Below the pieces are notes generated by a model. That model was not told the origin of the DNA. It saw only the letters and a list, made by a program, of their open reading frames with translations, and did not search any database. A program made the position numbers and the translations under genes. Positions 15,160-47,793 of a DNA stretch of 64,000 nt are shown here, one piece after another. The DNA is from Mesorhizobium sp. (GTDB taxonomy: Bacteria; Pseudomonadota; Alphaproteobacteria; Rhizobiales; Rhizobiaceae), in assembly GCF_017306585.1 (NCBI RefSeq), contig NZ_JAFKIC010000113.1:16317-80316 (forward strand), read 5' to 3'. How positions within the stretch are numbered: the first letter of the stretch is position 1; each line of letters opens with the position of its first letter.

Positions 15160-16677
15160 CTATTGGGGCTCGCCAAACCATCGTGATGCGGCCTGGGCGG
15201 CTTCCTCCGGATCAGGCTCGGCATCGCTGGCCCACGCGACCACGCCGTCGGGGCGCACCAGCAGGGCGGTCAGGCCGAGCCGTTCGCTGGCGTCGCCGGC
15301 GACATAGGTGATCCTGCCCGGCCAGCGCTCGGCAAGCGCCTGAAGCGGGGCGCCCGCGCCGAAATCCAGCAGCAGGCCGTGTCCGGACCGCATGAGTTCG
15401 CCGAGCCTCGTGCCGTCGGCCAGCGCGAAATCGGGCGCGCTGCGGCCGACGAGGTCGTGGCCGCCGCCGAGATCGTAGCGCAGTTCGACGCCCCAGACGC
15501 GGCCGGCGAAATAGGTCGCGCCGTCGCGCGTGGCGATGAGATCGCGGATGATGGCTTCGAGCGCGCGCGAACTGGGGCTCGGCCGCATCAGCGCGACCTG
15601 CGCCCGCGACCAGTCGAGCACCTGCGCCGCCACCGGATGCCGCTCGGCGAAATAGCTGTCGAGCAGGCCGGCCGGCGCGTGGCGGGGTGTGGTCGGGGCG
15701 GGCTTCCAGCCGGGGTTCATGGCGTCGCCGAGGCCGAGGTTGAGCCCCTGGCCGCCAAGCGGCGAGTGGATGTGCGCGGCGTCACCGGCAAGCAGCACGC
15801 GGCCCCGGCGGTAGGTTGTGGCGAGATAGGCGCGGTCCGTCCAGGTGGTGGCGAGTTTCAGCGCCGTCAGCGTGACGTCGGTGCCGGAGACGCGGCGCAG
15901 AACCTGCTGCACATGTTCCAACGTGATCGGCTGGCTGCGGTGGAAGGCGCCGCCGTCGAAATCGACCATGCCGATGGTGCCGGGCCGGGCAAAGGTATAC
16001 ATGCCCGCCGCCGTGTAGTGGCGGCCGAGGCTGAGCTTGTCCGGATCGGCCAGCTCGACTTCGACGGAATAGCCGGTGAATTCGGCATCGGTGCCGGTGA
16101 ATCCAAAGCCGCCAAGCTTGCGCACCGTGCTGCGGCCGCCATCGCAGCCGACCAGCCAGCGCGCGCCAAACGTCTCGCCGCCGGCGCGGACGGTCACGTC
16201 CTCGCCGGACTGGGTGAAACCCTCGACGCCGAGGCCGCGCCTGATCTCGACGCCCATCGCGCTCGCGCGGGCGGCGAGCATGGCTTCGAGCTCTTCCATC
16301 TCGACGGCCAGATTGGTGATGGCGGGTCCGGGAAGGCGATGGGGCCATTTCGAGGTGTCGACCACGTCGAGATAGAACTGGATGCCGGCGAAATGGCCGC
16401 CCGGGCGGCGCTGCTGCTGGCTCCAGTGCGCGCCGCCGTCCTTGCCCGGCGCCGCCGCGATCTCGCTGAGCAGGTTGCGGCGATGGAAGGCTTCGATGGT
16501 GGGCACTGACAGGCCGCGCATGCCGAAGGGCAGCCGCTTCAGGGGAGAGCGCGGATCCGGCGCTTGTTCCAGCACCAGGACGGAGATGCCCGCAAGGCGC
16601 AGCTCGCAGGCGAGGAAGAGACCGACCGGGCCGGCGCCGGCAATGATGACATTATGGGAAATCGGATGGCTTTGCAT
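15160..16677 (-). CDS. FAD-dependent aromatic-ring monooxygenase
   Basis: 505 aa with an AGGAG site. The N-terminal dinucleotide-binding motif is IIAGAGPVGLFLACELRLAG (GxGxxG). The DG motif region reads ARWLVGCDGGRSTVRK, and the second FAD motif is GDAAHIHSPLGGQGLNLGLG. This is the PheA/TetX/pentachlorophenol-hydroxylase class of single-component flavoprotein hydroxylases, which use NAD(P)H and O2. The C-terminal 120 or so residues form the thioredoxin-like tail common in the class (LLDFGAGAPLQALAERWPGR). After the second FAD motif the usual NLAWKLA reads NPGWKPAP, an odd proline-rich variant. Substrate unknown. Confidence 0.85.
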   Translation of the reverse strand: MQSHPISHNVIIAGAGPVGLFLACELRLAGISVLVLEQAPDPRSPLKRLPFGMRGLSVPTIEAFHRRNLLSEIAAAPGKDGGAHWSQQQRRPGGHFAGIQFYLDVVDTSKWPHRLPGPAITNLAVEMEELEAMLAARASAMGVEIRRGLGVEGFTQSGEDVTVRAGGETFGARWLVGCDGGRSTVRKLGGFGFTGTDAEFTGYSVEVELADPDKLSLGRHYTAAGMYTFARPGTIGMVDFDGGAFHRSQPITLEHVQQVLRRVSGTDVTLTALKLATTWTDRAYLATTYRRGRVLLAGDAAHIHSPLGGQGLNLGLGDAMNPGWKPAPTTPRHAPAGLLDSYFAERHPVAAQVLDWSRAQVALMRPSPSSRALEAIIRDLIATRDGATYFAGRVWGVELRYDLGGGHDLVGRSAPDFALADGTRLGELMRSGHGLLLDFGAGAPLQALAERWPGRITYVAGDASERLGLTALLVRPDGVVAWASDAEPDPEEAAQAASRWFGEPQ

Positions 16678-32166: not shown

Positions 32167-32739
32167 CTCGAGGAATGGCGGCGGCGCCGGAGCGAGGCGC
32201 CGCACTTCTTCGCGCATAGTCGTCATATGACGACTGGCCGGTATCGCCGCCAGCGTTCACTCTGCATGCCGGTATCCATGCTTGCCGCATGTCTGGTCCC
32301 GAAAACCGATGCCCCCTTTGGGCGACATGCAAGAGCGGCGGGGGCCGGGTGGGCGCCACGGGCTGCCCACCCGTCTCGGCTGCCCGGCGGCGACGCGCTA
32401 CCTGAGGCATTTGCGCAACAGATTGGCGGTAAATTCCCGGTGGCGGCATCACGGCGCGATGATGGTCGGCCATGGTGTCGGGACGCTATCACCGTGAAAA
32501 ACATGATTAAAACAGTCATCTATTAAAGCGAAGCGCGCCACGCTCGGGAAAATCATTCTAACCCTTTGCCATTGCGACAGAATTTCAGAAGCCATAGGGG
32601 ATGGATATCAGCGGCTTGCGTGGTGACAGCATGGAGCCGGCCCACGGTTCGCAGTCCCAATGGTCCGTCGTCCTTTCCATTTCCTGTCGGCGCGCTGTCC
32701 CGGCCCATCCTTGTCGGGCAAAGATCCCGGACGCGCCGC
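32167..32739. other. gene-poor stretch with palindrome and fecI upstream region
   Basis: About 570 bp with no credible gene. It holds a short palindromic element (32287-32330, outer GCATGTC/GACATGC arms around GGTCCCGAAAACCG) that resembles a common rhizobial intergenic palindrome. It also holds the iron-operator candidate at 32504-32518 and an AT-richer run before the sigma-factor gene. Open frames here are composition artefacts. Confidence 0.5.
32504..32518. promoter_or_regulatory. candidate iron-responsive operator (TGA-N9-TCA)
   Basis: TGATTAAAACAGTCA fits the IRO-type TGA-N9-TCA pattern bound by RirA in rhizobia. It lies about 220 bp before the sigma-factor gene of an iron-uptake unit. 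The core pattern is short, so chance occurrence cannot be excluded. Confidence 0.4.
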
Positions 32740-33246
32740 GTGAGGTGGGACCTGCACGGCCTGTTCGTGCGTCATGCGCGCGAGATCGACCGGTTCCTGC
32801 GCCGCCGTGGCCACACGCCGGAAACCGCGGCCGACCTGACCCAGGATACGTTCGTGCGGATGATGGCGGCGGCCCCGGGCAGGGCGGAGGAAAACCCGCG
32901 CGCCTATCTGTGGCGCGTCGCGCGCAACCTCTCGATCGATCTGAGACGGCGCGAGCGCGTCGTCGAGCACGTGCATCTGGCCGACGAGGCGTTCCAGCGC
33001 ATCGCCGACGGCGCGCCTTCGCCCGAAACCGTCGTCTATGACCGGCAGCGGCTGGCGATCGTGGAGAAGGCTCTGCTGGAACTGCCCGCGCGCACCCGCA
33101 GCGCCTTCGAGATGCACAGGATGGGCGAGAAGACGATGAGCGAGGTCGCCGTCGAACTCGGCCTGTCGACATCGCGGACCTGGACGCTGATCCGCCGTGC
33201 CTACCAGCACCTGCGCGCACGTCTCAACGAGGATGAAGCGTCATGA
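32740..33246 (+). CDS. fecI-like: FecI-like ECF sigma factor
   Basis: I chose the GTG at 32740 (168 aa), which gives the usual FecI length. The frame is open to 32566 but the upstream part does not look like protein. Sigma region 2 is seen in FVRHAREIDRFLRRRGHTPETAADLTQDTFVRM and YLWRVARNLSIDLRRRERV. Region 4 is in VEKALLELPARTRSAFEMHRM and MSEVAVELGLSTSRTWTLIRRA. It should direct transcription of the receptor downstream when released by FecR. The stop is followed 97 bp later by fecR. Confidence 0.85.
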   Translation: MRWDLHGLFVRHAREIDRFLRRRGHTPETAADLTQDTFVRMMAAAPGRAEENPRAYLWRVARNLSIDLRRRERVVEHVHLADEAFQRIADGAPSPETVVYDRQRLAIVEKALLELPARTRSAFEMHRMGEKTMSEVAVELGLSTSRTWTLIRRAYQHLRARLNEDEAS

Positions 33247-33343
33247 ACCGCGCGCGCAATTCACGCCGTGGCAGGAAATCGGCGCCGTCCGTTCGTTTCA
33301 GTCGGTACCGGACCATCTCGGCTCCGGCACCAGGGGCGCCAGC

Positions 33344-34294
33344 ATGACCGGGGACGAAAACGACGAAGACAGGCTTTTCGAGGAAGCGGCCGACCTTGCC
33401 ATCCGGCTGCAGAACGAGCCGGCCAGCCCGGTCGCCCACGAGCTTGTCCAGCAATGGCGCGCGCGCGGCCCGGCCCATGAGGCGGCCTGGGCGGAAGTCG
33501 CCGAAATCCGCGGCATGGCCGGGAAGGTGTTCCAGGATCGGCGCGACGCCGCGGCCGGGGAGGGCATGTCACGGCGCAAGGTCATCCTGACGGGCCTTGC
33601 CGGCTTCGCCGCGCTCGGCGCGGGCGCGATCTACGGGCCGGACCTGCTTCTGCGCCTCAGGGCCGACCAGGTGACCACGACGGCCGAGTTGCGCAAGGTC
33701 ACGCTCGCCGACGGCAGCGTCGTCACGCTCGGCCCCGACAGCGCCATGCGAAGCACCTTCACGCCTGCCTTCAGGCATGTGGAACTGCTGGCCGGCATGG
33801 CCTTCTTCGAGGTCGCGCCCGATGCCGCGCGGCCTTTCCGGGTCGAGGTCGAAACCCTGACCGCGACGGCCCTCGGCACCGCCTTCGATGTCAGCCGCGA
33901 CGCCGGATCCCTGACGGTGTCGGTCGCGCATGGGCTGGTCGAGGTGGCGATGCCGGAATCGCCGCTGGCGCAGGCGCAGCGTCTTGCCGAGGGCGACTGG
34001 CTGGCGCTCGATGACGGCGAGATCGAACTGGGAAAGCGCGACGCCAGCCAGATCGCGGCATGGCGCGACGGATTTATCGTCGCCGACCGCGAAACGGTAT
34101 CGTCGGTCGTGGCCAGGATCGCGCGCTGGAAATCCGGCCGCGTCGTCATCGCCGATGCCGGCCTCGGCGCGGGACGCATCAGCGGCGTCTTCGACCTCAC
34201 CGATCCGCTCGCCGCGCTCGAAGCGGTCGTCCAGCCCTATCAGGGCAAGGTGCGGCGGATATCGCCCTGGCTGACCGTCATTTCATCGATCTGA
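33344..34294 (+). CDS. fecR-like: FecR-like anti-sigma/sigma regulator
   Basis: 316 aa starting MTGDENDEDRLFEEAADLAI with AGGGG upstream; the ATG at 33233 would overlap fecI but gives an odd N-terminus. The N-terminal cytoplasmic sigma-binding part (EEAADLAIRLQNEPAS, AHEAAWAEVAEI) precedes one membrane helix (VILTGLAGFAALGAGAIYG, about residue 80-98). The periplasmic FecR domain follows (LADGSVVTLGPDSAMR, then FFEVAPDAARPFRVEV). In this family it relays receptor occupancy to the sigma factor. The last few codons and stop lie in a tandem duplication. Confidence 0.85.
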   Translation: MTGDENDEDRLFEEAADLAIRLQNEPASPVAHELVQQWRARGPAHEAAWAEVAEIRGMAGKVFQDRRDAAAGEGMSRRKVILTGLAGFAALGAGAIYGPDLLLRLRADQVTTTAELRKVTLADGSVVTLGPDSAMRSTFTPAFRHVELLAGMAFFEVAPDAARPFRVEVETLTATALGTAFDVSRDAGSLTVSVAHGLVEVAMPESPLAQAQRLAEGDWLALDDGEIELGKRDASQIAAWRDGFIVADRETVSSVVARIARWKSGRVVIADAGLGAGRISGVFDLTDPLAALEAVVQPYQGKVRRISPWLTVISSI

Positions 34295-34329
34295 AAAAAT
34301 ACGGGTCATCGATCTGAAAAAAATGCGGG
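34283..34329. repeat. short tandem duplication at the fecR stop codon
   Basis: TCATCGATCTGAAAAAATAC begins a 23-bp unit repeated once almost exactly (34283-34305 and 34306-34329). The first copy contains the fecR stop. It looks like a slippage event and leaves the protein unchanged. Confidence 0.7.
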
Positions 34330-34438
34330 ACAGGGGGAGAAAATCCCGAACCCCTGTTCGTTTCACGAGACAGGGATGCCGTCAGCCGCTGCCAACAGGT
34401 CCTCCCTCCCACAAAAATCAAAACGGAGCGGCTGAGCC

Positions 34439-37141
34439 ATGGGGCTGGGGCAAAAGAGATATGGAACAGGAACATTCGGCGCGCGGCTGCTGACAGCGGC
34501 GCTGCTGTCGTCGGCGGCCGTTACCGCCACGGTGATCGGGCAGGGGCCGGCGCACGGGCAATCCGCGCAACAGACGGCCTTCAACATTCCCGCCGGGCCG
34601 CTGCCGGGCGCGCTGGCAAGCTTCGGCAGGCAGGCCAGGCTGCAGGTCACCTATCTGCCGCAGATCGCGGCGGGCAAGCGCTCGCCGGGTGTTTCCGGGG
34701 CCGCGACGCCCGGCGCGGCGCTGGCACGGATACTCCAGGGCACCGGCCTGACCTATGCCTTCACCGGGGCCGGCACGGTGACGATCAGCGACCGCGTCGC
34801 CGCCGCGCACGCGCCCGGCGTGGCCGGCGGGGACGGCACGACGCTCGATCAGATCAGCGTCATCGCCGGCGGCGGCAATCCGGCCGACGAGCCCTACAAG
34901 ACGGCGGCGCCCACCTCATACATTTCCGGCGAAACCATCGAGCGGTTCCGCGGCTCCAGTCCGGCCGACATCTTTCGCGGCACGCCCGGCGTGATGTCGG
35001 GCGAGGCGCGCAACGGCGCCGGCTCCATCGACGTCAACGTGCGCGGCATGCAGGGCATGGGCCGCGTCAACGTCACCGTCGACGGCGCCGAGAATTCGCT
35101 GCAGGTCTACCAGGGCTATCAGGGCATCTCGAACCGGTCCTATGTCGATCCCGACCTTCTGGGCGGCGTCGACATCACCAAGGGTTCGGACGCCGCCTCC
35201 TACGGCATCGCCGGCACCGTGGCCATGCGCACGCTGAACGCCTCCGACATCGTGGACGAAGGCAAGCGTTTCGGCCTGCGGCTCAAGGGCGGCTTCGGCA
35301 CCAACACATCCAGCCCGGTCGCCGGCGCCACCTCCGGCTACGCGATTTCGAACGATTGGGGGGGCTGGCCGACCGTCAAGGAAGCCGCCACCGGCCTGAA
35401 CCGCCCTTCATTCCTCACGCCGACCAGCGGCTCGGGCAGCGTTGTCGCGGCCGTGCAGGAGGAGGACTTCGACCTCATCGCCGGCTACGCCTACCGCAAG
35501 CAGGGCAATTATCACGCCGGCAAATATGGTCCGGTGGCCAATCCGGTGCATCTGGGCCCGACCCCGTTCTGTTATAGTAACGGCACATGCGTGCCTTCCT
35601 TTGACTACAAGGACTATGTCGAGAATGCCGGCCTCGCCAACTACCGCGCCGGCGAGGAGGTGCTGAACACACAGCTCGAAACCCAGTCCTGGATCGCCAA
35701 GGGCACGTGGCGTTTCGGTGATGGCCAGAGCCTGGAGTTCGGCTATACGGGTTTTCGCAGCGAGGCCGGCGACAAGCTGGCCTCGGCGCTCGCAAGCGTT
35801 GCCTCGCCGGCGACGCAGGCGGCGCAGACGAGCGGCACCAGGCTCGATACCGGTACGCTGCGCTATCGTCTCAATCCGGAGGACAACGACCTCCTGAATC
35901 TCAGCGCGAATTTATGGATGACCAACCTTCAACTGCGCAATCCCGCGCGCAATGCCTATGGGAACAGGCCAGTGTGGCTTTCAAAGGATTTTCGGCCGGG
36001 TTCCAACACGATCATGTGGGGCGGAGAGATTTCCAACAAGTCGAAATTCGTCACCGACTATGGGCAGCTCGACTTCACCTACGGGATGACCTACCGGAAG
36101 GAGGACACGAACCCCAGCGCATACACCGAGGAGATCGAGGGCTGGCTCAACCTGCGCGATGCCGAGCGGCAGGAAGCCGCGGGTTATATCAAGACGGCAT
36201 ACAAGCCGGTGGACTGGCTGACGCTGAACGCCGGCCTGCGTTACTCCCAGTTCTGGCTGCATGATCGGCGCAAGACGGCAAACAGCCCCTTCCAGCTCAA
36301 CACCAAGCCAGATCGCAACGATGGTGGGATGAGCCCCTCGATCGGCGTCACGGTCGAGCCGTTCGACGGCACGCAGTTCTACGTCAACTACTCCAATGCG
36401 CTGCGCTTCCCGAGCACGTTCGAGTCCGTGTCGGCCTTCACCATCATCCCCAATCCCAACCTCGGCCCCGAACGGTCCAGCAACTGGGAACTGGGCATGA
36501 ACTTCCACCGCAACGGTCTGCTGAGCGAGACGGATGCGGGCATGGTCAAGTTCGGCTACTTCAACTGGGATGTGAAGAACTATATCGCGCGCGCGTATCG
36601 CTCCTTCCAGGGTGATGGCTACGTCTGGCAAGGGATGCAGGTCTACAATATCGACCGCGCCCGGTTCTCGGGGCTGGAGTTCTCCGGCCGCTACGAGACG
36701 GGCGGTTTCACCGCCGACCTCGCGGCGAACTACTATCTCGACGTGGAATTCTGCCAGCTGAACAGCGCGTGCGACGCCAAGTCCATGTATGGCGACTACG
36801 CCACCAACCAGGTGCCGCCGAAATATTCGGTCGACCTGACGCTGACGCAGAAGTTCATCGAGGACAAGCTGACGCTGGGCGGCCGGGTGTCCTATATCGG
36901 GCCGCGCGCCATCGGCCACGGCCAGGTGACCACACAAGGGCTCGGCCAGTTCATCTCGCAGGTGAAGTGGGACCCCTACACGCTGGTCGACGTCTTCGCC
37001 GACTACAAGCTGACCGAGAACCTGACCGCGACCGCGCGCATCGAGAACCTGTTCGACCGCTACTATGTCGACCCGCTCGGCCTGGTGACGGAGCCAGGGC
37101 CGGGACGCACGTTCTACGGGTCGCTGACGGCGAAGTTCTAA
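34439..37141 (+). CDS. TonB-dependent receptor with N-terminal signalling domain (FecA/HasR type)
   Basis: 900 aa. A signal peptide (hydrophobic LLTAALLSSAAVTATVIG) is followed by a secretin/TonB short N-terminal domain (FNIPAGPLPGALASFGRQARL through LAYAFTGAG-like, about 45-115). A TonB-box-like DQISVIAGG then leads to the plug (about 140-260; YISGETIERFRG, VRGMQGMGRVNVTVDGAE). The barrel has NPNLGPERSSNWELG and a final FYGSLTAKF. With FecI and FecR genes in front it is a transducing outer-membrane receptor. Its barrel resembles haem or hemophore receptors more than citrate receptors, but the ligand is unproven. Confidence 0.85.
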   Translation: MGLGQKRYGTGTFGARLLTAALLSSAAVTATVIGQGPAHGQSAQQTAFNIPAGPLPGALASFGRQARLQVTYLPQIAAGKRSPGVSGAATPGAALARILQGTGLTYAFTGAGTVTISDRVAAAHAPGVAGGDGTTLDQISVIAGGGNPADEPYKTAAPTSYISGETIERFRGSSPADIFRGTPGVMSGEARNGAGSIDVNVRGMQGMGRVNVTVDGAENSLQVYQGYQGISNRSYVDPDLLGGVDITKGSDAASYGIAGTVAMRTLNASDIVDEGKRFGLRLKGGFGTNTSSPVAGATSGYAISNDWGGWPTVKEAATGLNRPSFLTPTSGSGSVVAAVQEEDFDLIAGYAYRKQGNYHAGKYGPVANPVHLGPTPFCYSNGTCVPSFDYKDYVENAGLANYRAGEEVLNTQLETQSWIAKGTWRFGDGQSLEFGYTGFRSEAGDKLASALASVASPATQAAQTSGTRLDTGTLRYRLNPEDNDLLNLSANLWMTNLQLRNPARNAYGNRPVWLSKDFRPGSNTIMWGGEISNKSKFVTDYGQLDFTYGMTYRKEDTNPSAYTEEIEGWLNLRDAERQEAAGYIKTAYKPVDWLTLNAGLRYSQFWLHDRRKTANSPFQLNTKPDRNDGGMSPSIGVTVEPFDGTQFYVNYSNALRFPSTFESVSAFTIIPNPNLGPERSSNWELGMNFHRNGLLSETDAGMVKFGYFNWDVKNYIARAYRSFQGDGYVWQGMQVYNIDRARFSGLEFSGRYETGGFTADLAANYYLDVEFCQLNSACDAKSMYGDYATNQVPPKYSVDLTLTQKFIEDKLTLGGRVSYIGPRAIGHGQVTTQGLGQFISQVKWDPYTLVDVFADYKLTENLTATARIENLFDRYYVDPLGLVTEPGPGRTFYGSLTAKF

Positions 37142-37290: not shown

Positions 37291-38424
37291 ATGACGACAA
37301 TCCTCCACGACGAAACCGACGCCGCCTGGCAGGACGATGTCCGCCAGGGCGTGCGCCATGTGCGCGATCTCGAACGCCTGCCGCTGTCGGCGGCGGAGCG
37401 AGGCGCCGCGCAGCAAGCCGCCGCCAACCACAAGGTGCGCGCGCCAAAGGCCTATCTCGACCTCATCGACTGGAACGATCCGGCCGATCCGATCCGGGCG
37501 CAGGTCATCCCTTCGCCCGAAGAACTCGACGAGGCCGAGGGCGAACTCGACGATCCGATCGGCGACCATGCGTTCAGCCCGGTGCCGCGCCTGACGCATC
37601 GCCATGCCGACCGGGTGCTGTTGTTCCCGACCTATCAATGCGCGGTCTATTGTCGGTTCTGCTTCCGCAAGGAATCGCTGACTTCGATCGGGCGCGGCTA
37701 TACGCGCGCGGCGCTGGAGCCGGCGCTCGACTATATCGCGGCGCATCCCGAGATCCGCGAGGTGATCCTGACCGGCGGCGATCCGCTGTCGCTGCCGGAT
37801 GCGGCACTCACCGAAATCCGCGCCCGCATCGAGGCCATCGCCCATGTGCGGCTGCTGCGCATCCACACCCGCGTGCCGGTGGCGCTGCCGTCGCGCGTCA
37901 CGCCGGGGCTGGTCGAGGCGCTGCAGGGGAGGCTGATGGTGACGGTCGTCACCCATTTCAACCATGCACGCGAGATCACCGATGCGACCGAAGCGGCCTG
38001 CGCCATGCTGCGGCGGGCGGGCTTCGTGCTGCTCAACCAGACTGTGCTGCTGAAAGGTGTCAACGACAGCGTCGAGGCGCTGGAAGAGCTGTGCCGCGAA
38101 CTGATGTACCGGCTCGGTGTTAAACCCTATTACCTCCACCACGGCGATCTGGCGCGCGGCATGGCGCACCGGCGCACCACGATCGCGCAGGGCCAGGCGC
38201 TGGTGGAGGTGCTGCGGGCGCGGCTCTCGGGCATCTGCAACCCGGTCTATGTCATCGACCTGCCCCAGGGCGGCGGCAAGGTGCCGCTCGGGCCATGCCA
38301 TGTCGAGGCGCATGAGGGCGCCAACTGGCGCCTGCGCGGGCTGGACGGGAAGGTGAGGGAATATACCGAGGTGGTTGGCGAACTGGACGAAGGCGGTTCG
38401 AGGAAGTCGGCCGCCGGCTTGTGA
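37291..38424 (+). CDS. lysine 2,3-aminomutase-like radical SAM enzyme
   Basis: 377 aa starting MTTILHDETDAAWQDDVRQG; the open frame upstream runs through the receptor gene in another frame and is not used. The radical SAM cluster motif is CAVYCRFC (CxxxCxxC), followed by FRKES, so the carboxylate-binding Arg after the cluster is kept. PLP Lys is in DLPQGGGKVPLG. The two Asp residues that hold the lysine side-chain amine (HHGDLARG and YVIDLPQGG) are also kept. It should make L-beta-lysine from L-lysine, or act as the EpmB-type modifier of elongation factor P. No epmA or efp lies nearby. It is convergent with the NRPS-like operon, with one repeat element between. Confidence 0.8.
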   Translation: MTTILHDETDAAWQDDVRQGVRHVRDLERLPLSAAERGAAQQAAANHKVRAPKAYLDLIDWNDPADPIRAQVIPSPEELDEAEGELDDPIGDHAFSPVPRLTHRHADRVLLFPTYQCAVYCRFCFRKESLTSIGRGYTRAALEPALDYIAAHPEIREVILTGGDPLSLPDAALTEIRARIEAIAHVRLLRIHTRVPVALPSRVTPGLVEALQGRLMVTVVTHFNHAREITDATEAACAMLRRAGFVLLNQTVLLKGVNDSVEALEELCRELMYRLGVKPYYLHHGDLARGMAHRRTTIAQGQALVEVLRARLSGICNPVYVIDLPQGGGKVPLGPCHVEAHEGANWRLRGLDGKVREYTEVVGELDEGGSRKSAAGL

Positions 38425-38480
38425 GGTAGGGCTGCTTCAACTGGTGTAAGCCGTGGCGACTGTTGACAGTGGCCAATGTC

Positions 38481-38661
38481 GGCGCCGCCCCTCACTGTCC
38501 TGCCGGACATCTCTCCCCGTGTAGTGACGGGGAGAGAGGACTGGTTGCAACGCCTGCCCATTCTTTCAAGGTTGACGGTTGGCGAAATCAGCGATGACAG
38601 CGCCCCTCTCCCCGTCGCTATACGGGGAGAGGATGCCGGCAGGCAGGTGAGGGGCAGCGCC
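38481..38661. repeat. paired palindromic intergenic repeat (CTCCCCGT..ACGGGGAG subtype)
   Basis: Same build as 4911-5098: CCTGCCGGACATCTCTCCCC to the left, its inverted copy to the right, and a central TTGACGGTTGGCGAAATCAG. It separates the aminomutase gene from the convergent PPTase gene. Confidence 0.75.
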
Positions 38662-38687
38662 AACGTCGAGGATTACGGCGTCGGACC

Positions 38688-39341
38688 CTAAGCCTCATCA
38701 CCGCCGATAAACGCCAACACCACGATGCGCGGATCCACGCACCAGGTCAGCCTCGCGCTCCGTCCCGTCCTCGTCGTCGCGTGGCCCGCGCCGAGATCGA
38801 CGGCGATATCCTCGTAGCCCAGCACCCGATGATCGAGCGGATAGGCGGCCTTGTAGACGGCTTCCTTGGCGGCGAAGAGCAAGCGGCCGGCAAGCCGTTC
38901 CTCGACCGCGCCGATCCGGTCGGCCGGCGTCGCGACGAGCGGCAGCAAGTCGTCGGGCAGGGGCAGCGCCGGCTCGACATCGATGCCGAGCGAGCCGACA
39001 TCGCCGATGGCGGCAACCGCGGCAACGGCCATGTCGTCGTCATGGGCGAGCGAGCCCGTCATACCCTCCGGCCAGGCGGGAGCGCCGGAGGGCGTACGCA
39101 AAACGGCGAAGCCGTCGAAGCCGGCATCCGCCAGCAGCCGGTGCGCGAGAAAGCGCGCCGCACCGCTGGCGCGGCGCATGGTGGGCTGGCGGGCGGGCAT
39201 CGAGCGCGCTTCGTCGGGCAACAGATGCGCCTCATCGCCTTCGCGGATCAGTCTGCATCCGGTGCGCACGTGAGCGGGCGCCATGGCGGCCATCGCGCGG
39301 GCGAGGGCGATCTCCCCGGTTGCGAGGATGGCTGTTGTCAT
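38688..39341 (-). CDS. 4'-phosphopantetheinyl transferase (Sfp/EntD type)
   Basis: 217 aa. The Mg2+/CoA motif is LGIDVEP, and the second motif is LLFAAKEAVYKAAYP, both diagnostic of PPTases for carrier proteins. The fold start (GCRLIREGDEAHLLPDEARS) is typical of EntD-like enzymes. It transfers 4'-phosphopantetheine from CoA to the Ser of a thiolation domain. It is the last gene of the NRPS-like operon (4-bp overlap with the GNAT), so its natural substrate is very likely the thiolation domain of the NRPS-like protein. Confidence 0.88.
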   Translation of the reverse strand: MTTAILATGEIALARAMAAMAPAHVRTGCRLIREGDEAHLLPDEARSMPARQPTMRRASGAARFLAHRLLADAGFDGFAVLRTPSGAPAWPEGMTGSLAHDDDMAVAAVAAIGDVGSLGIDVEPALPLPDDLLPLVATPADRIGAVEERLAGRLLFAAKEAVYKAAYPLDHRVLGYEDIAVDLGAGHATTRTGRSARLTWCVDPRIVVLAFIGGDEA

Positions 39342-39820
39342 GGCTTTTCGGCCGCTGTGCCCAGCACCAGATCGGCGATCATTTCGCCATCCTCGTCGAG
39401 CCCTTCTTCCACGAAACCGGCGGCGCGGTAGAGTTGCCGCGCAGCCTCGTTCTCCGGTTCATAGCAGATCGAGACGTGGCTGACGTGGCCGAGCCCGCGG
39501 ATTTCGTCCAGCACGGCCCGCAGCGCCGCCTTGCCGTAGCCTCGTCCCTGCCGGGCGCGGTCGATCATGAAGCGATAGATGCGTGCTTCGTCATCGTCTT
39601 CGGCGGCATCGTACATCAGGAAACCGACGACCTCTTCGCCGGCCATGATGACGCGCGGCCGGGCATCTTCATCGGACCTGGCTTCACGAAGGGAATCCGC
39701 ATTGCCGGCGACGAAGTCCGCCTGCTCCGGGGCGACGCGCAGGGCGGTGACCTTGGCCCGGTTGGCCCTGGTCACGGGCGCCAGGTGGACGCCCGCGGCG
39801 CCGCGCGGGCCGTCCGTCAA
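39338..39820 (-). CDS. GNAT-family N-acetyltransferase
   Basis: 160 aa. The acetyl-CoA loop is RQGRGYGKAALRAVLDEI (Q/RxxGxG/A). The segment YRFMIDRARQG precedes it and AARQLYRAAGFVEEG closes the fold. This matches small GNATs such as SpeG/BltD or amino-acid acetyltransferases. It is fully embedded in the NRPS-like operon with 4-bp overlaps on both sides. It may acetylate the amine of the monomer or product, or protect the producer. The acceptor is unknown. Confidence 0.85.
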   Translation of the reverse strand: MTDGPRGAAGVHLAPVTRANRAKVTALRVAPEQADFVAGNADSLREARSDEDARPRVIMAGEEVVGFLMYDAAEDDDEARIYRFMIDRARQGRGYGKAALRAVLDEIRGLGHVSHVSICYEPENEAARQLYRAAGFVEEGLDEDGEMIADLVLGTAAEKP

Positions 39821-42800
39821 GACGCCACGGCCCCGGCGCCCTCACTGACCGGCTCGACGAAGCGGTGCAGCTTGGCCGGGTTGCCGCGCCAGATCGTGTT
39901 GGGCTCCAGCACCTCGCCCTTCATCACGAAGGCGTCGGCATCGACCATCGATCCATCGCCCATCACCACGCCGTAGTGGACAAAGGCCGAAGGCCCGAGC
40001 GTGCAGCCCTTGCCGATGCGGATGTAATCCGACTTGAAGGCGCCTTCTTCCAGCGAGTGGGCCTGGATGACGCATCCCTCGTTGAGCGTGGCGTCGTCGC
40101 CGATCTCGACCAGCGAGCGCTCGGTCAGGTTGGCGCCGCCGTCATAGACGCGCTTGCCCACCTTGACGCCCAGCAGGCGCAGGATCATCGGCCGGAACGG
40201 CGTGCCGGCGAAGAGGCGCACAATGGGCGAATCCGCGAGCTTCCAGTGGCGCTCGTGGCGCCAGAAGGTGGCATCGTAGATCGTCGTGATGCGCGGCTTC
40301 AGCCTGCGGAAGCCGAGGCTCGCCCGCTCGACGAAGATGTAGAACGGGATGGTGATCGCCGAGGTCAGCAGCACCGCCACGAAGAGAGCGATCTCCGCCC
40401 ATTCCGTATAGTAGTTCAGCGCGCGGTCCCAGATCGCCAGCGTGGCGAACAGCATCACCCATTGCGTGGCCAGGAACAGCAGGATCGTCACCAGATTGTG
40501 CAGGTTCTTCAGCGGAATCCGGTTGCGGCGGTCACTCTCGCCGACGCCGGCGATGAGCTCCTTGTCGCGGTTGACCATGCGCGGAATCTCGAAAGCGGGC
40601 GAACCCAGCAGGCCGACATTCTCGCGCACCGGGCCGTCGATCGGCACCATCACCTTGGTGCCGAGCAGGACGTTGTCGCCCGTGCGCCCATCCGGCGGAT
40701 AATAGATGTTGTTGCCGAGATAGTTGCGTTCGCCGATGCGGGTCTGCTCGAGACGGAATGCCGAGGCGGATTTGTGCATGTTGATCATGAACAGGCCGTC
40801 CGACACCATGGTCTGGGTGCCGATCTCGCACAGAAGCGGGTTCTCGTGCTGCTGGTTGGAGCCGAAGTTCGAACCGGTCTGCACCACCTTGTTGAGGTTC
40901 CAGCCGATGGCGCGCATGTAGTGGACGATGGCCGAGCTGTCGCCGAACACGAGGCCCAGCACGCGCGAATTGCTCGAAAACTCCGCGACGCTCTGCAGCC
41001 AGTAGCGGAAGCCGTAAAGCGTGTAGGTGCGGCCGGGCTTCAGGATCAGGCTGAACAGGCGCGGCACCACCGTGGCGGCAAGGAAGGCGATGGCGACGTA
41101 GCCGAATACGGTCACCGTCGTGCCGATGGCGACGAGGCCGATCGTCTCCTGATAGTCGTCGCCGACATTTTCCCAATAGGAGTGGAACAGAAGCGGCAGC
41201 GGCGTGACGATGGCGAACAGGCCGATGAGTTGCACGGCCTCGTAGAGGAAGCGGCGGATGCGCGGCGGATTGACGTTGCGCACCTTGCAATAGTCCGCCG
41301 TGGTCGGCACCGCAGGCGATCCATGCCAGTGCTCGCCGTCGGGAATGCTCTGCCCGCGCTGCAGCGAGGACGAATGGCCGAGCTGGCCGCCATCGCCGAT
41401 CGCCGTGTCGATGTCGAGCGTGGAGCCGACGCCGACGAAGGCATCGTTGCCGATGGTGAGCCGTCCGGTCTGAATATAGCCGGCCTGGGCGCGGAAGCCC
41501 AGGATCATCGATTCCTTGCGCAGGATGGTACGGTCGCCGATCGAGATCAGATCCGTGCAGACGGGCACGGATTTGGATTCGATGACGGCATTGTGGCCGA
41601 GCTTGGTGCCGAGCAGCCTGAGATAGATGCTGTAGAGCGGGCTGCCGCGGAACAGCACGACGGGCGCGGTGCGGATCAGGGTCTTGACGACCCAGAAGCG
41701 GTAGTAGCGAAGGCCCCAGATCGGGAAGGTTTCCGCTTTCCAGCGGCCGACAAGCACCCATTTGGCGAGGACCGCGAAGCCGGTCATGCCGAAGAAAACG
41801 CCGGCCGACAGCACCACGCACCTGAGATAGAGGCTCAGCGGATCGTCGAGCGCGTCATAGACCCAGTTGAGGCCGCGATTGATCGCCCAGAGCGACACGT
41901 AGCTGTAGAGCGCGTAGAACAAAAGCTGGGCGGCGCCGCAGCTCCAATAGGCGAAGTTGGACGCCTGGCGGGTCGGGACGCGCTCGGTGGTGGCGATCGT
42001 CATCTCCTCCGCCACGCCCAGATGCTTGGCCAGGCGCGCCACGGTCGGATAGAGGTAGATGTCGCGCATCGACGTCGTGGCCCACTCCTTCCTGGTGCGC
42101 ACGCGGGCGCAGAAGTGAGCCATCAGCAGCGAATTGGCGCCGAGATCGTCGAAGAAATTGTCCTCGACCGAGACGGTCTCGAATTTCAGCACCTCGGCCA
42201 GCGCCTCGGCCAGGAAGCGCTCGTCGTCATTGCCGGGCGCCACCATGGCGCGGTCGGCCGAGAGCCGCACGCTGGTCGGCTTCGGCAGGCGACGGGTGTC
42301 GACCTTGTTGGAGACCGTCATCGGGATCGCCGGCAGTTCCTCCAGGTAGGAGGGCACCATGTAGTCGGGCAGGCGCTGCTTCATCACCTGCGCGAGATCG
42401 GCGCGCCGGATCGGCGGCTGGCCGGCCTTGGCCGCGTAATAGGCGACGAGCTCGACGCGGCCGGGCTCGATTTCCCAGGTGGTGACGGCGGCCTGCGCGA
42501 TTTCGGGCTGGTCGAGCAGCACCGCCTCGATCTCGCCGAGCTCGATGCGATAGCCGCGGATCTTCACCTGGGTGTCGATGCGCCCGTTATACTCGATCTC
42601 GCCGGCATCGTTGATGCGGCCGAGGTCGCCGGTCCGGTAGATGCGCTTCGAGGGGTTGTTGGGCAGGCCGATGAAGTCGGCGATGAATTTCTGCTCCGTC
42701 AGGTCGGCCCGGTTGAGATAGCCGACCGCGAGCCCGATGCCGGCAATGCCGATCTCGCCCAGTTCGCCCGGTGCGGCCAGTTGCGGCTTCTCCGGGTCGA

Positions 42801-43983
42801 GGATGGCGATGGAGTAGGTCGGCAGCGGCGCGCCGATGGTCACCGGCCGGTCGGGCGTCAGCTCGCCCATCGTCGCCGTGACGGTCGCCTCTGTCGGGCC
42901 ATAGGTGTTCAGGATCTTGCGGCCGGGCTTCGACCAGCGCACCACGAGATTGTGCGGGCAGGCCTCGCCGCCCACCAGCAGGGTGCGCAGGCCGGGCACC
43001 TCGCTGGTGATGGACGACAAAAGCGTCGGGCTGCAGGCCATGCAGGTGATGTCGTGCAGACGCAGGAAATCGGCCAGTTCCTCGCCGACCAGAGGCATCT
43101 GGCCCGGCGCCGGGACGACGGTCGCGCCGGCCACGAAGGGCACCCAGATCTCCTCGGAGGAAAAGTCGAAGGCGATGGTCATGCCCTGGTAGACGCGATC
43201 GCCCGGCTTGTAGCCGTAGGACGCTGCCGCGACATGGATGAAGTTGATGAAGCTGCGGTGCGTGACGGCCACGCCCTTCGGCCTGCCGGTCGTGCCCGAG
43301 GTGTAGAGGATGTAGCAGGTCTCGTCGGCCGGGGCGGACGCCTTGGCCGGCTTCAGCGGGGCGTCGGACTGCGCCGAGATCTCGGCAGCGGCGCTGTCGA
43401 TGAGGATATGGGGGACGGTCAGCTCGCCGGCGCGGGAGGCATAGGTGGCGATGGTGACGATCAGGCTGACGCCGGCATCCTCGATGATGAGGGTCATGCG
43501 CTCCTGCGGAAACGCGGTGGCAAGCGGCACGAAAGCGGCGCCGGCCTTCATCACCGCGAGGAGCGCGATATAGGTGTCGGCCGAACGGTCGAGGATGAGT
43601 CCGACCCGGTGGCCGGGCTTGACGCCGCGCTTGACCAGCAGGCGGGCGAACTGGTTGGCGCGCCGGTTGAGCTCGGAGTAGGTCCAGCTACGGCCTTCGG
43701 AAATCACGGCCGGCAGGTCGGCGAAGGTCTCGGCCAGATGATCGAAGACCTGGTCCAGCCGCTCGCCGGGTTGCGTCTGCCGGGGGAAATCCGCGCCGGT
43801 CAGGATCTGGGGGTGCTCGGCCAGGGAACGCTGGGCGCTCCTCATCAGCGCATCGACGGCCACCCGCTCGGATTTCGCCCGCCCGGATTTGGCCAAGCCG
43901 GTTTCGGCCAGGCCTGTCCCTGGCTCCCCGTCGGTGCGGGCCATGTCCCTGTCAAGTGCGGCAATATCTAGACCGTGATCCAT
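39817..43983 (-). CDS. Pls/PosA-type non-ribosomal peptide synthetase (poly-amino-acid synthetase-like)
   Basis: 1388 aa from the ATG at 43983 (42 more codons are open upstream). Order: an adenylation domain (about 75-575; A3 YTSGTTGRPKG at 228, FDFSSEEIW at 272, NTYGPTEATV at 359, YRTGDL at 449, A10 Lys in SNKVD near 560), then a thiolation domain (LGANS, Ser about 618). Six membrane helices (about 678-702, 718-746, 912-937, 948-980, 1162-1185, 1195-1220) separate three soluble domains with hexapeptide-repeat character (about 750-905, 985-1155, 1225-1385). This is the plan of epsilon-poly-lysine-type synthetases, which build homopolymers at the membrane without a separate condensation domain. 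By hand alignment to GrsA the pocket code is about D-F-E-A-L-G-T-V-T-K. The operon continues with GNAT and PPTase genes. Confidence 0.88.
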   Translation of the reverse strand: MDHGLDIAALDRDMARTDGEPGTGLAETGLAKSGRAKSERVAVDALMRSAQRSLAEHPQILTGADFPRQTQPGERLDQVFDHLAETFADLPAVISEGRSWTYSELNRRANQFARLLVKRGVKPGHRVGLILDRSADTYIALLAVMKAGAAFVPLATAFPQERMTLIIEDAGVSLIVTIATYASRAGELTVPHILIDSAAAEISAQSDAPLKPAKASAPADETCYILYTSGTTGRPKGVAVTHRSFINFIHVAAASYGYKPGDRVYQGMTIAFDFSSEEIWVPFVAGATVVPAPGQMPLVGEELADFLRLHDITCMACSPTLLSSITSEVPGLRTLLVGGEACPHNLVVRWSKPGRKILNTYGPTEATVTATMGELTPDRPVTIGAPLPTYSIAILDPEKPQLAAPGELGEIGIAGIGLAVGYLNRADLTEQKFIADFIGLPNNPSKRIYRTGDLGRINDAGEIEYNGRIDTQVKIRGYRIELGEIEAVLLDQPEIAQAAVTTWEIEPGRVELVAYYAAKAGQPPIRRADLAQVMKQRLPDYMVPSYLEELPAIPMTVSNKVDTRRLPKPTSVRLSADRAMVAPGNDDERFLAEALAEVLKFETVSVEDNFFDDLGANSLLMAHFCARVRTRKEWATTSMRDIYLYPTVARLAKHLGVAEEMTIATTERVPTRQASNFAYWSCGAAQLLFYALYSYVSLWAINRGLNWVYDALDDPLSLYLRCVVLSAGVFFGMTGFAVLAKWVLVGRWKAETFPIWGLRYYRFWVVKTLIRTAPVVLFRGSPLYSIYLRLLGTKLGHNAVIESKSVPVCTDLISIGDRTILRKESMILGFRAQAGYIQTGRLTIGNDAFVGVGSTLDIDTAIGDGGQLGHSSSLQRGQSIPDGEHWHGSPAVPTTADYCKVRNVNPPRIRRFLYEAVQLIGLFAIVTPLPLLFHSYWENVGDDYQETIGLVAIGTTVTVFGYVAIAFLAATVVPRLFSLILKPGRTYTLYGFRYWLQSVAEFSSNSRVLGLVFGDSSAIVHYMRAIGWNLNKVVQTGSNFGSNQQHENPLLCEIGTQTMVSDGLFMINMHKSASAFRLEQTRIGERNYLGNNIYYPPDGRTGDNVLLGTKVMVPIDGPVRENVGLLGSPAFEIPRMVNRDKELIAGVGESDRRNRIPLKNLHNLVTILLFLATQWVMLFATLAIWDRALNYYTEWAEIALFVAVLLTSAITIPFYIFVERASLGFRRLKPRITTIYDATFWRHERHWKLADSPIVRLFAGTPFRPMILRLLGVKVGKRVYDGGANLTERSLVEIGDDATLNEGCVIQAHSLEEGAFKSDYIRIGKGCTLGPSAFVHYGVVMGDGSMVDADAFVMKGEVLEPNTIWRGNPAKLHRFVEPVSEGAGAVAS

Positions 43984-44231
43984 TTTCCAAACTTTCTCGT
44001 CCTGGCGAAGCCGTGACAGTCGACGATGCCGCTTGAGCAGGCATTGTCGGCTGCGCCGCCGCTGCAATCTGACCCTGGTCGATGGAGGCGGGATGACCGA
44101 AGCTTCCAAAACGGAAGCCCCTCAATCCCTGCCGGCGGTGATTGACCGCCAGGCCTCGTCCCTTTTTGGCGGGCCGCTATCCTAAAATCCGTTCGAGTGT
44201 TTTTATATTTCCTGCAATCAACCCTGTTCGC

Positions 44232-44307
44232 ACATGGTTATGCCATACGATCCTTTCGCCAGTTTTTCTGAACTGTTGCGATTTGTTTCTGGATTGTTTC
44301 TGAGCGC
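44232..44307 (-). promoter_or_regulatory. 76-bp conserved upstream block with 11-bp-period direct repeats (copy 2)
   Basis: On the minus strand CAGAAACAA-TC-CAGAAACAA is a perfect direct repeat. It is followed by AAAAACTGGCGAAA and CATAACCAT, about 250-320 bp before the NRPS-like start. It aligns without gaps to 10203-10278. The rest of the roughly 450-bp gap between the MORN gene and the NRPS-like gene shows no credible gene. Confidence 0.5.
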
Positions 44308-44430: not shown

Positions 44431-46245
44431 CTACCTGCAAATATTGTACTGGATACCTGGATCACATTTGCGGCTTAGGTCGAAGTAATCAAATTTATAC
44501 GGACGCGGCCTGAACCAAAGCAATTCCAGTGGCTTGCTCTGCCGCTCGCTGCCGTCAGCGAATTTCGCCCTGACGCGGAATTTGTGAATGGAGGAGCGGT
44601 CGGCATGGAATTTGAATCGGCTGGTTTGCTGCGCGATGTCGCGGTTGCCGCGAACAGGTACGTCGATGCTATAGTTCTTTCGGTTATACGGTAGGTGAAT
44701 GTCCTGATAGCGAGCCGCCTCCGGTGAGCCTTCAGAGCCGGAGCCGCATTCAGCGACGGGTTCAGGCACCTCCAGCGCGGCGATGGAAACTGGGACGGTA
44801 AAGGCCTGTTCTTCCGTATGGATTTTATCGTCGGCGTCTTTCCACTTGTATTTCATCTTGCCTACGAGGTTGGTCAGCATCAAGCCTTCAAGTCTGTAGA
44901 TAGACTTTGCTATCGCGCCCAGTTCTATCGAGGCCAGGAATTGACGCGAGCACTCTTCGAGCCCGTCGATGGACGCGCATTTGAAATGGCGCGTCTGTAA
45001 AGTGCCTACGTCCGCACCGGCCTGCCTGATTGAGGTCAATACGTCGATACTCTCCGAAGAATCGAAATCTTCGAGACCCTTGATGTCGAAAAAGGTCGAT
45101 GAATAACCTCGCTCGTCGGAAAAAGCGAAATGGAATTCCGGCTCCAGAACTTGGCCCCACCCTTGGTTCAATATCATGAATCGTGGGCTGAACCCTTCGC
45201 AGCCGATATCCGCGAAAAGTGATAACATTGGTTTATTGAACGGTTCACTTTCCGTGAAATCCAGAGACATACTGGATATTCTGCCTTTTTTACCTTTGTC
45301 AGACGCTAGGTCGACCTTTAAAAAGGCATAATAGTCATCCCATTCTATTTCGCCAAACGTATGATCTTCTATTTCTATATTGCTGTCGCCATTCCAGAAA
45401 TTCATAAGGGCGCTTGATCTCGGATAGAACTGAACGTTATCAGCCAAATTTAGTGTTTCGTATTGAAGCAATGGACTGGATATCAGGTTGATGCGCTCAT
45501 CTATCGCCGCCGAGATGGAGAACCCGGCCGCCTGTCCCGACCTGGTTCCGGCTTTCAGAAGACCGCCCACCCGGGCATCGGCGAAGAGATCGGGGCGCCT
45601 GCCTTCGACTTCGCGTCCGCCCCGCCAGACGGATCGGTAGGTCGTGCCGCCGGGAAGCTGCGTCGTTCCCGTCCCGTCGCGGACGCCGTCGCGAAATGTG
45701 CCGATGAAGATCTCGCCATTCGTCGAGACATAGCGGGCCGGCCCGTCGGCCACGCCATGCCGCATCTGGCCTTGATAGCGGTTGCCGGCCTCATCCACCC
45801 ACAGGACCGACCCCTCCGGGGCGCCATCCAGCCATTCGCCGTCGAGATACTCGCCCGTGCGCAATTCCAGCCGGCCATGTCCCTCCGGCTTGCCCCCGAC
45901 GAGCGAGCCGACATAGGTGGCGAAGACCGTTCCCGGATCGTAGGAGGGCGAGCCGCCGACGCGCCATTGCAGGCGCCCATGCCCGGAAGGCAGCCCGTCG
46001 GGCGACAGGCCGCCATCGGCCAGCAGCGGGTCCGGTTCCCAGATGAAATCCAGGCCTTTTTCGGGCGAGGGGTCCCAGACGCGCACGGTCTTTCGCGAGA
46101 CCGAACGGGTGGCGGCATCATAGATCGTCTGGACGCGGCTCTCCCACGCCGGATGGGGTGACGGATGGAGATAGTCACCGCCGGCGGCATCGATCGTTGC
46201 CGCCAGCACCGCGAGCGCGGCCAACGAAGCTCGTCTTGCAATCAT
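44431..46245 (-). CDS. exported MORN-repeat protein with an unrelated C-terminal half
   Basis: 604 aa with a signal peptide (MIARRASLAALAVLAATIDA). Residues about 85-215 hold MORN-type repeats (GHGRLQW, YVGSLVGGKPEGHGRLEL, YLDGEWLDGAPEGSV, YQGQMRHGVADGPARYV, FIGTFRDGVRDGTG). Such repeats form a beta scaffold at membranes or with protein partners. The C-terminal 350 or so residues have no recognised domain and several Cys residues. The DNA for this part (about 44431-45480) is clearly more AT-rich than the rest. The gene may be a fusion or partly acquired. It stands alone behind the NRPS-like region. Confidence 0.7.
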   Translation of the reverse strand: MIARRASLAALAVLAATIDAAGGDYLHPSPHPAWESRVQTIYDAATRSVSRKTVRVWDPSPEKGLDFIWEPDPLLADGGLSPDGLPSGHGRLQWRVGGSPSYDPGTVFATYVGSLVGGKPEGHGRLELRTGEYLDGEWLDGAPEGSVLWVDEAGNRYQGQMRHGVADGPARYVSTNGEIFIGTFRDGVRDGTGTTQLPGGTTYRSVWRGGREVEGRRPDLFADARVGGLLKAGTRSGQAAGFSISAAIDERINLISSPLLQYETLNLADNVQFYPRSSALMNFWNGDSNIEIEDHTFGEIEWDDYYAFLKVDLASDKGKKGRISSMSLDFTESEPFNKPMLSLFADIGCEGFSPRFMILNQGWGQVLEPEFHFAFSDERGYSSTFFDIKGLEDFDSSESIDVLTSIRQAGADVGTLQTRHFKCASIDGLEECSRQFLASIELGAIAKSIYRLEGLMLTNLVGKMKYKWKDADDKIHTEEQAFTVPVSIAALEVPEPVAECGSGSEGSPEAARYQDIHLPYNRKNYSIDVPVRGNRDIAQQTSRFKFHADRSSIHKFRVRAKFADGSERQSKPLELLWFRPRPYKFDYFDLSRKCDPGIQYNICR

Positions 46246-46821: not shown

Positions 46822-47793
46822 ATGTTCAGCATGACACGCCGCACAGTGCTTGGAACCGCCGCCGCCGCTGCCGCCTTCGGGCTGGCCGGCAAGCTCGAAT
46901 TCACCCGACCGGCCTTCGCCCAGACGCCGGTGGAACCTGCCGTCGGCTTCTACAAATACACGGTCGGCGACATCGAGGTCACCGCCGTCTATGACGGCAT
47001 CTGGAGGAAGCCGCACGACCCGGCCTTTATCGCCAATGCTTCGGTCGACGACACCAAGGCAGCGCTCGCCAAGGCGGGGCTGACCACCGACTTCATGCCC
47101 ATTCCGCTCACCGTCGTGGTGCTGAAGATGGGCGGCCGGCTGATCATGATGGATGCCGGCTCGGGCGTCGGCCAGTGGCAGACCAACGCCACGCATCTGC
47201 CGGCCAACATGGCCGCCGCCGGCATCGACTACAAGGCGATCGACACCATCATGATCTCGCATTTCCACCCCGACCATGTCTGGGGCCTGATGGAGAAGGG
47301 CACCAACGCGCCGGTGTTTCCCAATGCCGAGCTGATCGTCAACGCCACGGAGTACAATTGGTGGACCGATCCCAGCCGGCTCGCGAAACTGCCCGAGGGC
47401 CGCAAGCCGGCGGGCAAGCGCATCGCCGAGAATTTCCCGAAATGGAAGAACTGGAAGCTGGTCGAGGACGGCGCGGAAGTGGCGCCCGGCATCCAGATCA
47501 TCGCCGCGCCGGGCCATACGCCGGGCCATTCGGTGTATCTCGCCAGCACCGGCAAGGAACAGTTCATGGTCTCGGCCGACACCATGTACGTGCCGGCGCT
47601 GCTGGCGCCGCATCCGGAGTGGCAAGGCAGCTACGACCAGGACGGGCCGACGGCGATAACCACCCGCCACAAGATCATCGACCGGGTGATCGCCGACAAC
47701 ATCCGCATTTCCGGCTCGCACTTCCCGTTCCCCGGCACCGGCGTCTTCGTGAAAGACGGCAATGCTTACGGCTTCACACCGGTTCAAGTTTGA
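46822..47793 (+). CDS. Tat-exported metallo-beta-lactamase-fold hydrolase
   Basis: 323 aa. A twin-arginine signal (SMTRRTVLGTAAAAAAFGLA) is followed by the MBL fold. The metal motif is ISHFHPDHVWGL (HxHxDH), with further His and Asp ligands in APGHTPGHSVYL and VSADTMYVPAL. The last His lies in SGSHFPFPG. The fold hydrolyses or oxidises thioesters, lactones, phosphodiesters or similar substrates; the true one is unknown. It is periplasmic. Its stop codon lies inside the start of the inverted-repeat element at 47792. Confidence 0.85.
   Translation: MFSMTRRTVLGTAAAAAAFGLAGKLEFTRPAFAQTPVEPAVGFYKYTVGDIEVTAVYDGIWRKPHDPAFIANASVDDTKAALAKAGLTTDFMPIPLTVVVLKMGGRLIMMDAGSGVGQWQTNATHLPANMAAAGIDYKAIDTIMISHFHPDHVWGLMEKGTNAPVFPNAELIVNATEYNWWTDPSRLAKLPEGRKPAGKRIAENFPKWKNWKLVEDGAEVAPGIQIIAAPGHTPGHSVYLASTGKEQFMVSADTMYVPALLAPHPEWQGSYDQDGPTAITTRHKIIDRVIADNIRISGSHFPFPGTGVFVKDGNAYGFTPVQV

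Follow-up and report, generated by a model that had tools for sequence, protein, structure and literature searches.

A Pls/PosA-type synthetase cassette of Mesorhizobium, predicted to make a cationic diamino-acid oligomer, and its neighbouring lysine 2,3-aminomutase-like gene

The Pls/PosA family of non-ribosomal peptide synthetases (NRPSs) includes several described systems for homopolymers of diamino acids. PosA, the delta-poly-L-ornithine synthetase of Acinetobacter, combines one adenylation (A) and one thiolation (T) domain with six membrane helices and three soluble segments, holds Asp and Glu in its substrate pocket and Thr at position 7 of the pocket code, and is encoded by a single-gene operon (PMC10522769). 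The poly-diaminobutyrate and poly-diaminopropionate pathways, represented by PddA and the PDAPs, employ dedicated monomer enzymes, namely a transaminase with an aspartate kinase, or homologues of cysteine synthase and cyclodeaminase (PMC8225329, PMC4668381). In a further case the presence of an aminomutase gene next to a Pls homologue pointed the way to epsilon-poly-beta-lysine, whose synthetase has the pocket code DGESISVVNK (PMC10522769). Here we describe a related locus in a 64,000-nucleotide stretch of DNA (the window) from Mesorhizobium sp., assembly GCF_017306585.1, contig NZ_JAFKIC010000113.1 (our C88, part of a 7.09-Mb genome), positions 16,317 to 80,316. A Pls/PosA-type NRPS gene is followed by genes for a GNAT N-acetyltransferase and a phosphopantetheinyl transferase (PPTase), and a gene of the KamA (lysine 2,3-aminomutase) family lies tail to tail with them. 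A first-pass annotation had read all four as one system that could make a polymer or capped oligomer of lysine, beta-lysine or another diamino acid. We consider it probable that the first three genes form a self-contained cassette for a cationic oligomer of a short diamino acid, and that the aminomutase is a neighbour whose work is related to elongation factor P (EF-P).

The synthetase gene (39817..43983, reverse strand) starts with an ATG at 43983 and encodes a single-module enzyme of 1,388 residues; a longer open reading frame (ORF) with a TTG start extends to 44109 and comprises 1,430 residues. TIGR02353, the 'Pls/PosA family NRPS' model, matches residues 724-1412 of the longer ORF with 924.2 bits against a cut-off of 423.1. 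Pfam recognises AMP-binding, AMP-binding_C and PP-binding, that is, one A domain (42304..43746) followed by one T domain (42019..42216; PF00550) whose carrier serine lies in LGANSL, both on the reverse strand, and motifs that we take to be A3, A5, A7 and A8 are present alongside that of the carrier Ser. The C-terminal polymerisation region (39874..41940, reverse strand) contains six membrane helices in three pairs, visible in the mean hydropathy of 25 aligned sequences including that of the window, and three soluble segments that resemble one another in HHalign comparisons (probability 98 for C1-C3, 76 for C2-C3 and 34 for C1-C2). The Pls-type plan of A and T domain, six helices and three soluble segments, noticed at first sight, is thus confirmed by Pfam, TIGR02353, hydropathy and HHalign. 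The soluble segments are modelled as probably left-handed beta-helices. Pfam Hexapep models match the protein near its C-terminus alone (best at 1363-1393), and AlphaFold2 predicts the C-terminal region with a mean pLDDT of 55, confident for about the first third only. Foldseek searches with this low-confidence model gave low TM-scores to the query throughout (0.07-0.16). The matches were chiefly hexapeptide acetyltransferases, in agreement with the model described in PMC10522769, with complex I subunits and gamma-carbonic anhydrases among the rest. The TIGR02353 score, the A-T arrangement with three helix pairs and segments, and a pocket code with Asp in position 1 and Glu in position 3 together support the assignment to the Pls/PosA type, a predicted maker of isopeptide homopolymers. 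The synthetase shares 95% identity with one from Mesorhizobium comanense, a species with two synthetase copies (L076 and L090), one accompanied by GNAT, PPTase and aminomutase genes and the other lacking all three within 8 kb.

The GNAT gene (39338..39820, reverse strand; identified by Pfam) overlaps the synthetase gene by 4 bp (39817-39820), and the gene for a PptT/Sfp-like PPTase (38688..39341, reverse strand; PF17837, PF01648 and PptT-type structures) overlaps the GNAT gene by another 4 bp (39338-39341). We compared 69 loci from named genomes of several genera, in a few of which a contig ends near the NRPS gene. The NRPS has a GNAT homologue beside it in 57 of them and a PPTase homologue in 61, with 55 loci having the two together; because they recur jointly so often, the layout is not a matter of chance, and the proposal of a Pls-type NRPS with its own GNAT and PPTase holds. 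The GNAT is absent, for example, at two loci of Rhizobium lusitanum and two more of Rhizobium, in Pleomorphomonas and on one Shinella plasmid, and the PPTase is absent at two Phyllobacterium loci. Apart from the cassette genes, every ORF family was confined to 21 or fewer of the 69 loci (flanks up to 8 kb, queries from 14 representative loci), and this comparison found no monomer-making gene in the cassette. By sequence, the nearest solved structures to the GNAT are spermine/spermidine acetyltransferases (PDB 9dsb, E 9e-16; 2fl4, E 2e-15), a relationship that suggests a primary amine as acceptor. On a Sphingomonas plasmid (L183:5968-11083) a PosA-like synthetase with the code DMEHNGTVTK is likewise followed by PPTase and GNAT genes; since neither of these has a BLAST match to its window counterpart at E 1, the trio may have more than one origin.

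From gene content, architecture, conservation of the cassette, pocket residues and the co-occurrence of KamA with epmA we infer the following chemistry, monomer and accessory roles. The PPTase would arm the carrier domain of the NRPS, and the A domain would activate a short-chain diamino acid, with 2,4-diaminobutyrate the likeliest candidate and ornithine the next. The C-terminal region, embedded in the membrane, would link the thioester-bound units by way of their side-chain amines, giving a cationic oligomer with isopeptide bonds, and the GNAT would probably acetylate an amine of the product or the monomer, as a cap or for self-protection. The facing aminomutase would most likely make beta-lysine that is attached to EF-P with the help of EpmA.

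The choice of monomer is guided by the adenylation pocket. Read at positions that we take to be those of GrsA, the code is DFEALGTVTK (residues 272, 273, 276, 315, 335, 337, 359, 367, 368 and 559 of P0001). As a control of the mapping, an Acinetobacter PosA homologue gave DMEHNGTVSK, and its residues (217, 218, 221, 260, 280, 304, 312 and 313) agree with the numbering in PMC10522769. Among 70 sequences including the window's, 55 carry DFEALGTVTK, ten DFEAMGTVTK and one DFEALGTITK, and four are distant relatives. In the comparison with codes of further relatives, L140 and L175 were excluded for divergent or unusable codes, and the short or split synthetases L186, L187, L188 and L194 were left uncoded; L143 and L144 yielded none of the Pls type. 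According to PMC10522769, position 2 is Phe in the synthetases for poly-diaminopropionate and poly-diaminobutyrate, Met in those for poly-ornithine and Ala in those for poly-lysine, and the size of this residue is proposed to set chain length, Phe marking the diaminopropionate/diaminobutyrate type. The window enzyme has Phe and in this falls in with PddA and the PDAPs, a likeness drawn at position 2; unlike their pathways, it has no monomer genes that we could find. The same Phe argues against lysine: the pocket has neither the Ala of an epsilon-poly-L-lysine synthetase nor the DGESISVVNK code of the epsilon-poly-beta-lysine enzyme. Lysine and beta-lysine, the two monomers named in the first-pass annotation, are thus disfavoured, which leaves its 'another diamino acid'; a neutral or acidic substrate is not indicated, because the enzyme retains both acidic residues, Asp and Glu, of the diamino-acid pocket. 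The most likely monomer is diaminobutyrate, followed by ornithine.

Relatives with the DFE signature give a mixed picture of monomer supply. The enzymes on two Skermanella plasmids and at a Crossiella locus (L173, L180 and L142) are 48-50% identical to that of the window over the whole protein and share positions 1-3 of the code, whereas their code, DFECLSVVTK, has C, S and V at positions 4, 6 and 7 in place of A, G and T. In favour of diaminobutyrate, these synthetases stand directly behind a diaminobutyrate transaminase gene, ectB in Skermanella and a Dat-like gene in Crossiella (a shortened stretch of the latter scored 371.9 bits, the cut-off being 401.6); no GNAT or PPTase is named alongside the two Skermanella enzymes, in a gene table that is incomplete, whereas the window has both. 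Several observations weigh against diaminobutyrate. Phe at position 2 is not invariably accompanied by such a gene: no transaminase is annotated within 7 kb of a Paenarthrobacter synthetase with the code DFECLSVVTK, or within 6 kb of the synthetases on two Rhodococcus plasmids (DFEYLGTVTK). In the genome of the window, no diaminobutyrate transaminase exceeds the cut-off, the best match being a GABA transaminase (261 against 401.6 bits), and there is no SbnB-type diaminopropionate enzyme (133.6 against 326.9 bits), in a search confined to the Dat and SbnB routes. The supply of diaminobutyrate is therefore unexplained, and the G-T-V-T half of the window code is nearer to PosA than to DFECLSVVTK.

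These points lend weight to ornithine, as a primary metabolite. The enzyme might make delta-poly-L-ornithine as PosA does, with Phe tolerated in the pocket, and this special case of the proposed cassette is possible but doubtful. No dedicated gene is required for ornithine, and the search of the cassette found none; positions 6-9 of the code read GTVT, comparable to GTVS in PosA; and the PosA-like enzyme of the Sphingomonas plasmid is also encoded with a PPTase and a GNAT, though these are unmatched to those of the window. Set against this is the Phe at position 2, typical of the shorter diamino acids in PMC10522769 and Met in PosA. PosA shares the domain plan, the Asp and Glu and the Thr at position 7, but it is 29% identical to the window enzyme and its gene stands by itself, whereas GNAT and PPTase genes follow here.

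The aminomutase gene (37291..38424, forward strand) lies outside the cassette, and its end is 263 bp from that of the PPTase gene, the two running tail to tail. Aligned to PDB 2A5H, the product keeps the CxxxCxxC cluster motif together with Arg134, Asp293, Asp330 and Lys337, in what we take to be the numbering and the functional residues of that enzyme, so the coordinates and the alignment uphold its description as a lysine 2,3-aminomutase-like gene in this orientation. The match stops at residue 369 of 416 in 2A5H, and LAM_C covers 56 of 127 positions. EpmB is described in PMC2821294 as being without the C-terminal domain of lysine 2,3-aminomutases.

The distribution of the gene points to EF-P. 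In the genome of the window it is the single KamA match, epmA and one of the two efp genes are about 190 bp apart, and both EF-P proteins carry PGKG loops, which amounts to the epmA and Lys34-type EF-P context expected for EpmB. Across 247 genomes of the family, KamA and genX/epmA matches over cut-off are found together in 68, KamA alone in one, genX alone in eight (G030, G067, G129, G151, G156, G195, G213 and G221) and neither in 170; the two genes lie no more than 2.5 kb apart in 57 of the 68, and genX is present in all 15 genomes that have both NRPS and KamA. In Rhizobium NLR16a, efp, epmA and the aminomutase gene are direct neighbours. Four genomes of the genus lack both KamA and, at E 1e-80, epmA (G274, G289, G305 and G339), of which G274 retains the NRPS in one frame. 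The synthetase gene of G339 (L157) spans two different frames and may for that reason be broken or contain a sequencing error. Three further genomes that lack epmA alone are drafts of 290-940 contigs. The outcome adverse to the first-pass annotation, an aminomutase that goes with epmA/efp and not with the NRPS, is largely what these counts show: KamA tracks epmA in 68 of the 69 family genomes that carry it and is missing from six of 21 with a synthetase, although KamA and the synthetase are associated as well.

The features that speak against such a role concern mainly the Mesorhizobium form of the protein. The window copy stays below the cut-offs of the EpmB model (272.2 against 369.3 bits) and of TIGR03822/AblA_like_2 (358.8 against 396.25 bits), and four Mesorhizobium copies scanned reach 357-370 bits with TIGR03822, as opposed to 510-564 for five epmA-linked copies. 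Mesorhizobium KamA shares only 42-51% identity with its counterpart in the family's other genera, and all Mesorhizobium rows, with or without NRPS, form a long branch in a KamA tree of 48 rows (45 of 69 KamA rows plus three others; its 'otherEpmAlinked' group includes L056 and L069, with epmA on another contig). Moreover, 13 genomes of the genus have epmA without KamA, so that EpmA, as in the eight genX-only family genomes, occurs with no EpmB that could be recognised. Paracoccus relatives are 51-53% identical to the window aminomutase but give no guidance, since the two Paracoccus loci opened have no epmA annotated within 3 kb. An EF-P-unrelated and Mesorhizobium-specific function, for instance in lysine catabolism or for free beta-lysine, would accord with the low scores, the long branch and the position of the window gene apart from epmA. 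We nonetheless regard it as unlikely: alongside epmA and two EF-Ps of the PGKG type, the window genome has this one KamA match and no other, KamA and epmA are jointly absent from four genomes, and TIGR03822 is the best model even here. The EF-P role fits better: the protein resembles EpmB (YjeK) in family, active-site residues and genomic company and probably works as EpmB, while membership of that family is not claimed because of the divergence, the scores and the branch length.

Whether the aminomutase travels with the synthetase can be asked at several scales. It is present in the flank (up to 8 kb) of 31 of the 69 named loci, every one titled Mesorhizobium. Of 146 Mesorhizobium-group genomes, 81 have the synthetase and 129 have KamA (at E 1e-40); 77 carry both, four the synthetase alone, 52 KamA alone and 13 neither. 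The two are positively associated in the genus (Fisher p 0.008) and in the 247 family genomes (p 2e-5), both values uncorrected for kinship. Split by bit score, the synthetase places of the genus fall into a main type (at least 896, n=53) and a second type (at most 862, n=29). KamA lies within 10 kb at 45 of the 53 main-type places, which together with the association counts against our reading, and at none of the 29 of the second type. Some non-adjacent cases are due to contig breaks in draft genomes; in G297 and G372, each a single contig, and in G384, which has two, NRPS and KamA are 0.27 to 2.6 Mb apart. The ten NRPS-free genomes that we opened carry a KamA 81-86% identical to that of the window, and the 17-kb stretch around it holds no homologue of the cassette GNAT, the PPTase or a Pls-type NRPS; three of the ten stretches encode AMP-binding proteins of merely 24-25% identity. 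BA14K, beta-lactamase-fold and AMP-binding genes are among the KamA neighbours in some NRPS-free genomes. In the family, KamA goes unmatched in six of the 21 genomes with a synthetase, and two of these six (G149, matched to L139, and G108, matched to L102) share the exact ten-residue code of the window.

The proposed link between synthetase and aminomutase is not borne out by these counts, given the KamA-free genomes with the exact code and the retention of KamA in 52 of 65 synthetase-free genomes of the genus. They do not show a dedicated aminomutase inherited with the synthetase, as poly-beta-lysine would call for, although it adjoins 45 of the 53 main-type places, and as a cassette partner the gene was rejected: it tracks epmA, occurs without the synthetase and is missing from synthetase-bearing genomes. 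That the aminomutase makes beta-lysine which the synthetase polymerises to epsilon-poly-beta-lysine or uses as a cap has the tail-to-tail adjacency at main-type places, the positive association, the kept lysine-binding residues and the actinobacterial precedent of a Pls-type NRPS beside an aminomutase gene (PMC10522769) in its favour, yet it is very improbable in the face of the differing pocket code, the two KamA-free genomes with the window code, the second synthetase type that never adjoins KamA and the KamA genes without cassette in all ten genomes opened. The same precedent removes the claim that an aminomutase-linked product would be new, as far as the family at large is concerned. Gene adjacency alone would probably have pointed to the wrong monomer.

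The self-contained cassette belongs to a family already known from rhizobia. PMC10522769 describes members whose code reads D L E D I G T V T/V/I K, Rhizobium CCGE532 carries a DLED-type synthetase 28% identical to that of the window, and in the NCBI annotation genes of this kind already bear the Pls/PosA family name. We found no description of a DFEA type accompanied by GNAT and PPTase in the accessible text of PMC10522769, whose Supplementary Table 2 may list the code, or in the literature searched; nor did that literature, which under-represents subscription journals, contain a paper on a poly-amino-acid synthetase of Mesorhizobium. We tentatively suggest that the cassette of the Hyphomicrobiales makes an undescribed product, an oligomer that carries acetyl groups and is built from a short diamino acid or from one new to the family. 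It would do so with no dedicated monomer gene, and its pocket class, DFE-A-L/M-GTVT, would differ both from the DLED class of rhizobia and from the characterised synthetases with which we could compare codes. The synthetase is present in 81 of the 146 sampled Mesorhizobium-group genomes, more than half, and would there probably yield a cationic oligomer. Its production in soil or on roots, should it occur, could have effects on competitors, on fungi or on biofilms.

The remaining genes around the cassette are less widely shared. Just before the aminomutase and on the same strand, 32566-37141 encodes an ECF sigma factor, a FecR-type anti-sigma factor and a TonB receptor of the heme/hemoglobin type (TIGR01785, 336 bits); homologues of all three are present in the flank of a single one of the 69 named loci (L078). 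Upstream of the synthetase gene, 44431-46245 encodes a MORN-repeat protein with a homologue in three of the 69 flanks (L076, L078 and L079). Beyond it, 46822-47793 encodes an MBL-fold protein nearest to AidB-type AHL lactonases (157 bits, cut-off 360). A pair of MBL-fold and TPR genes recurs in 19 of the 69 loci, and in L097 and L126 it stands between the synthetase cassette and the aminomutase.

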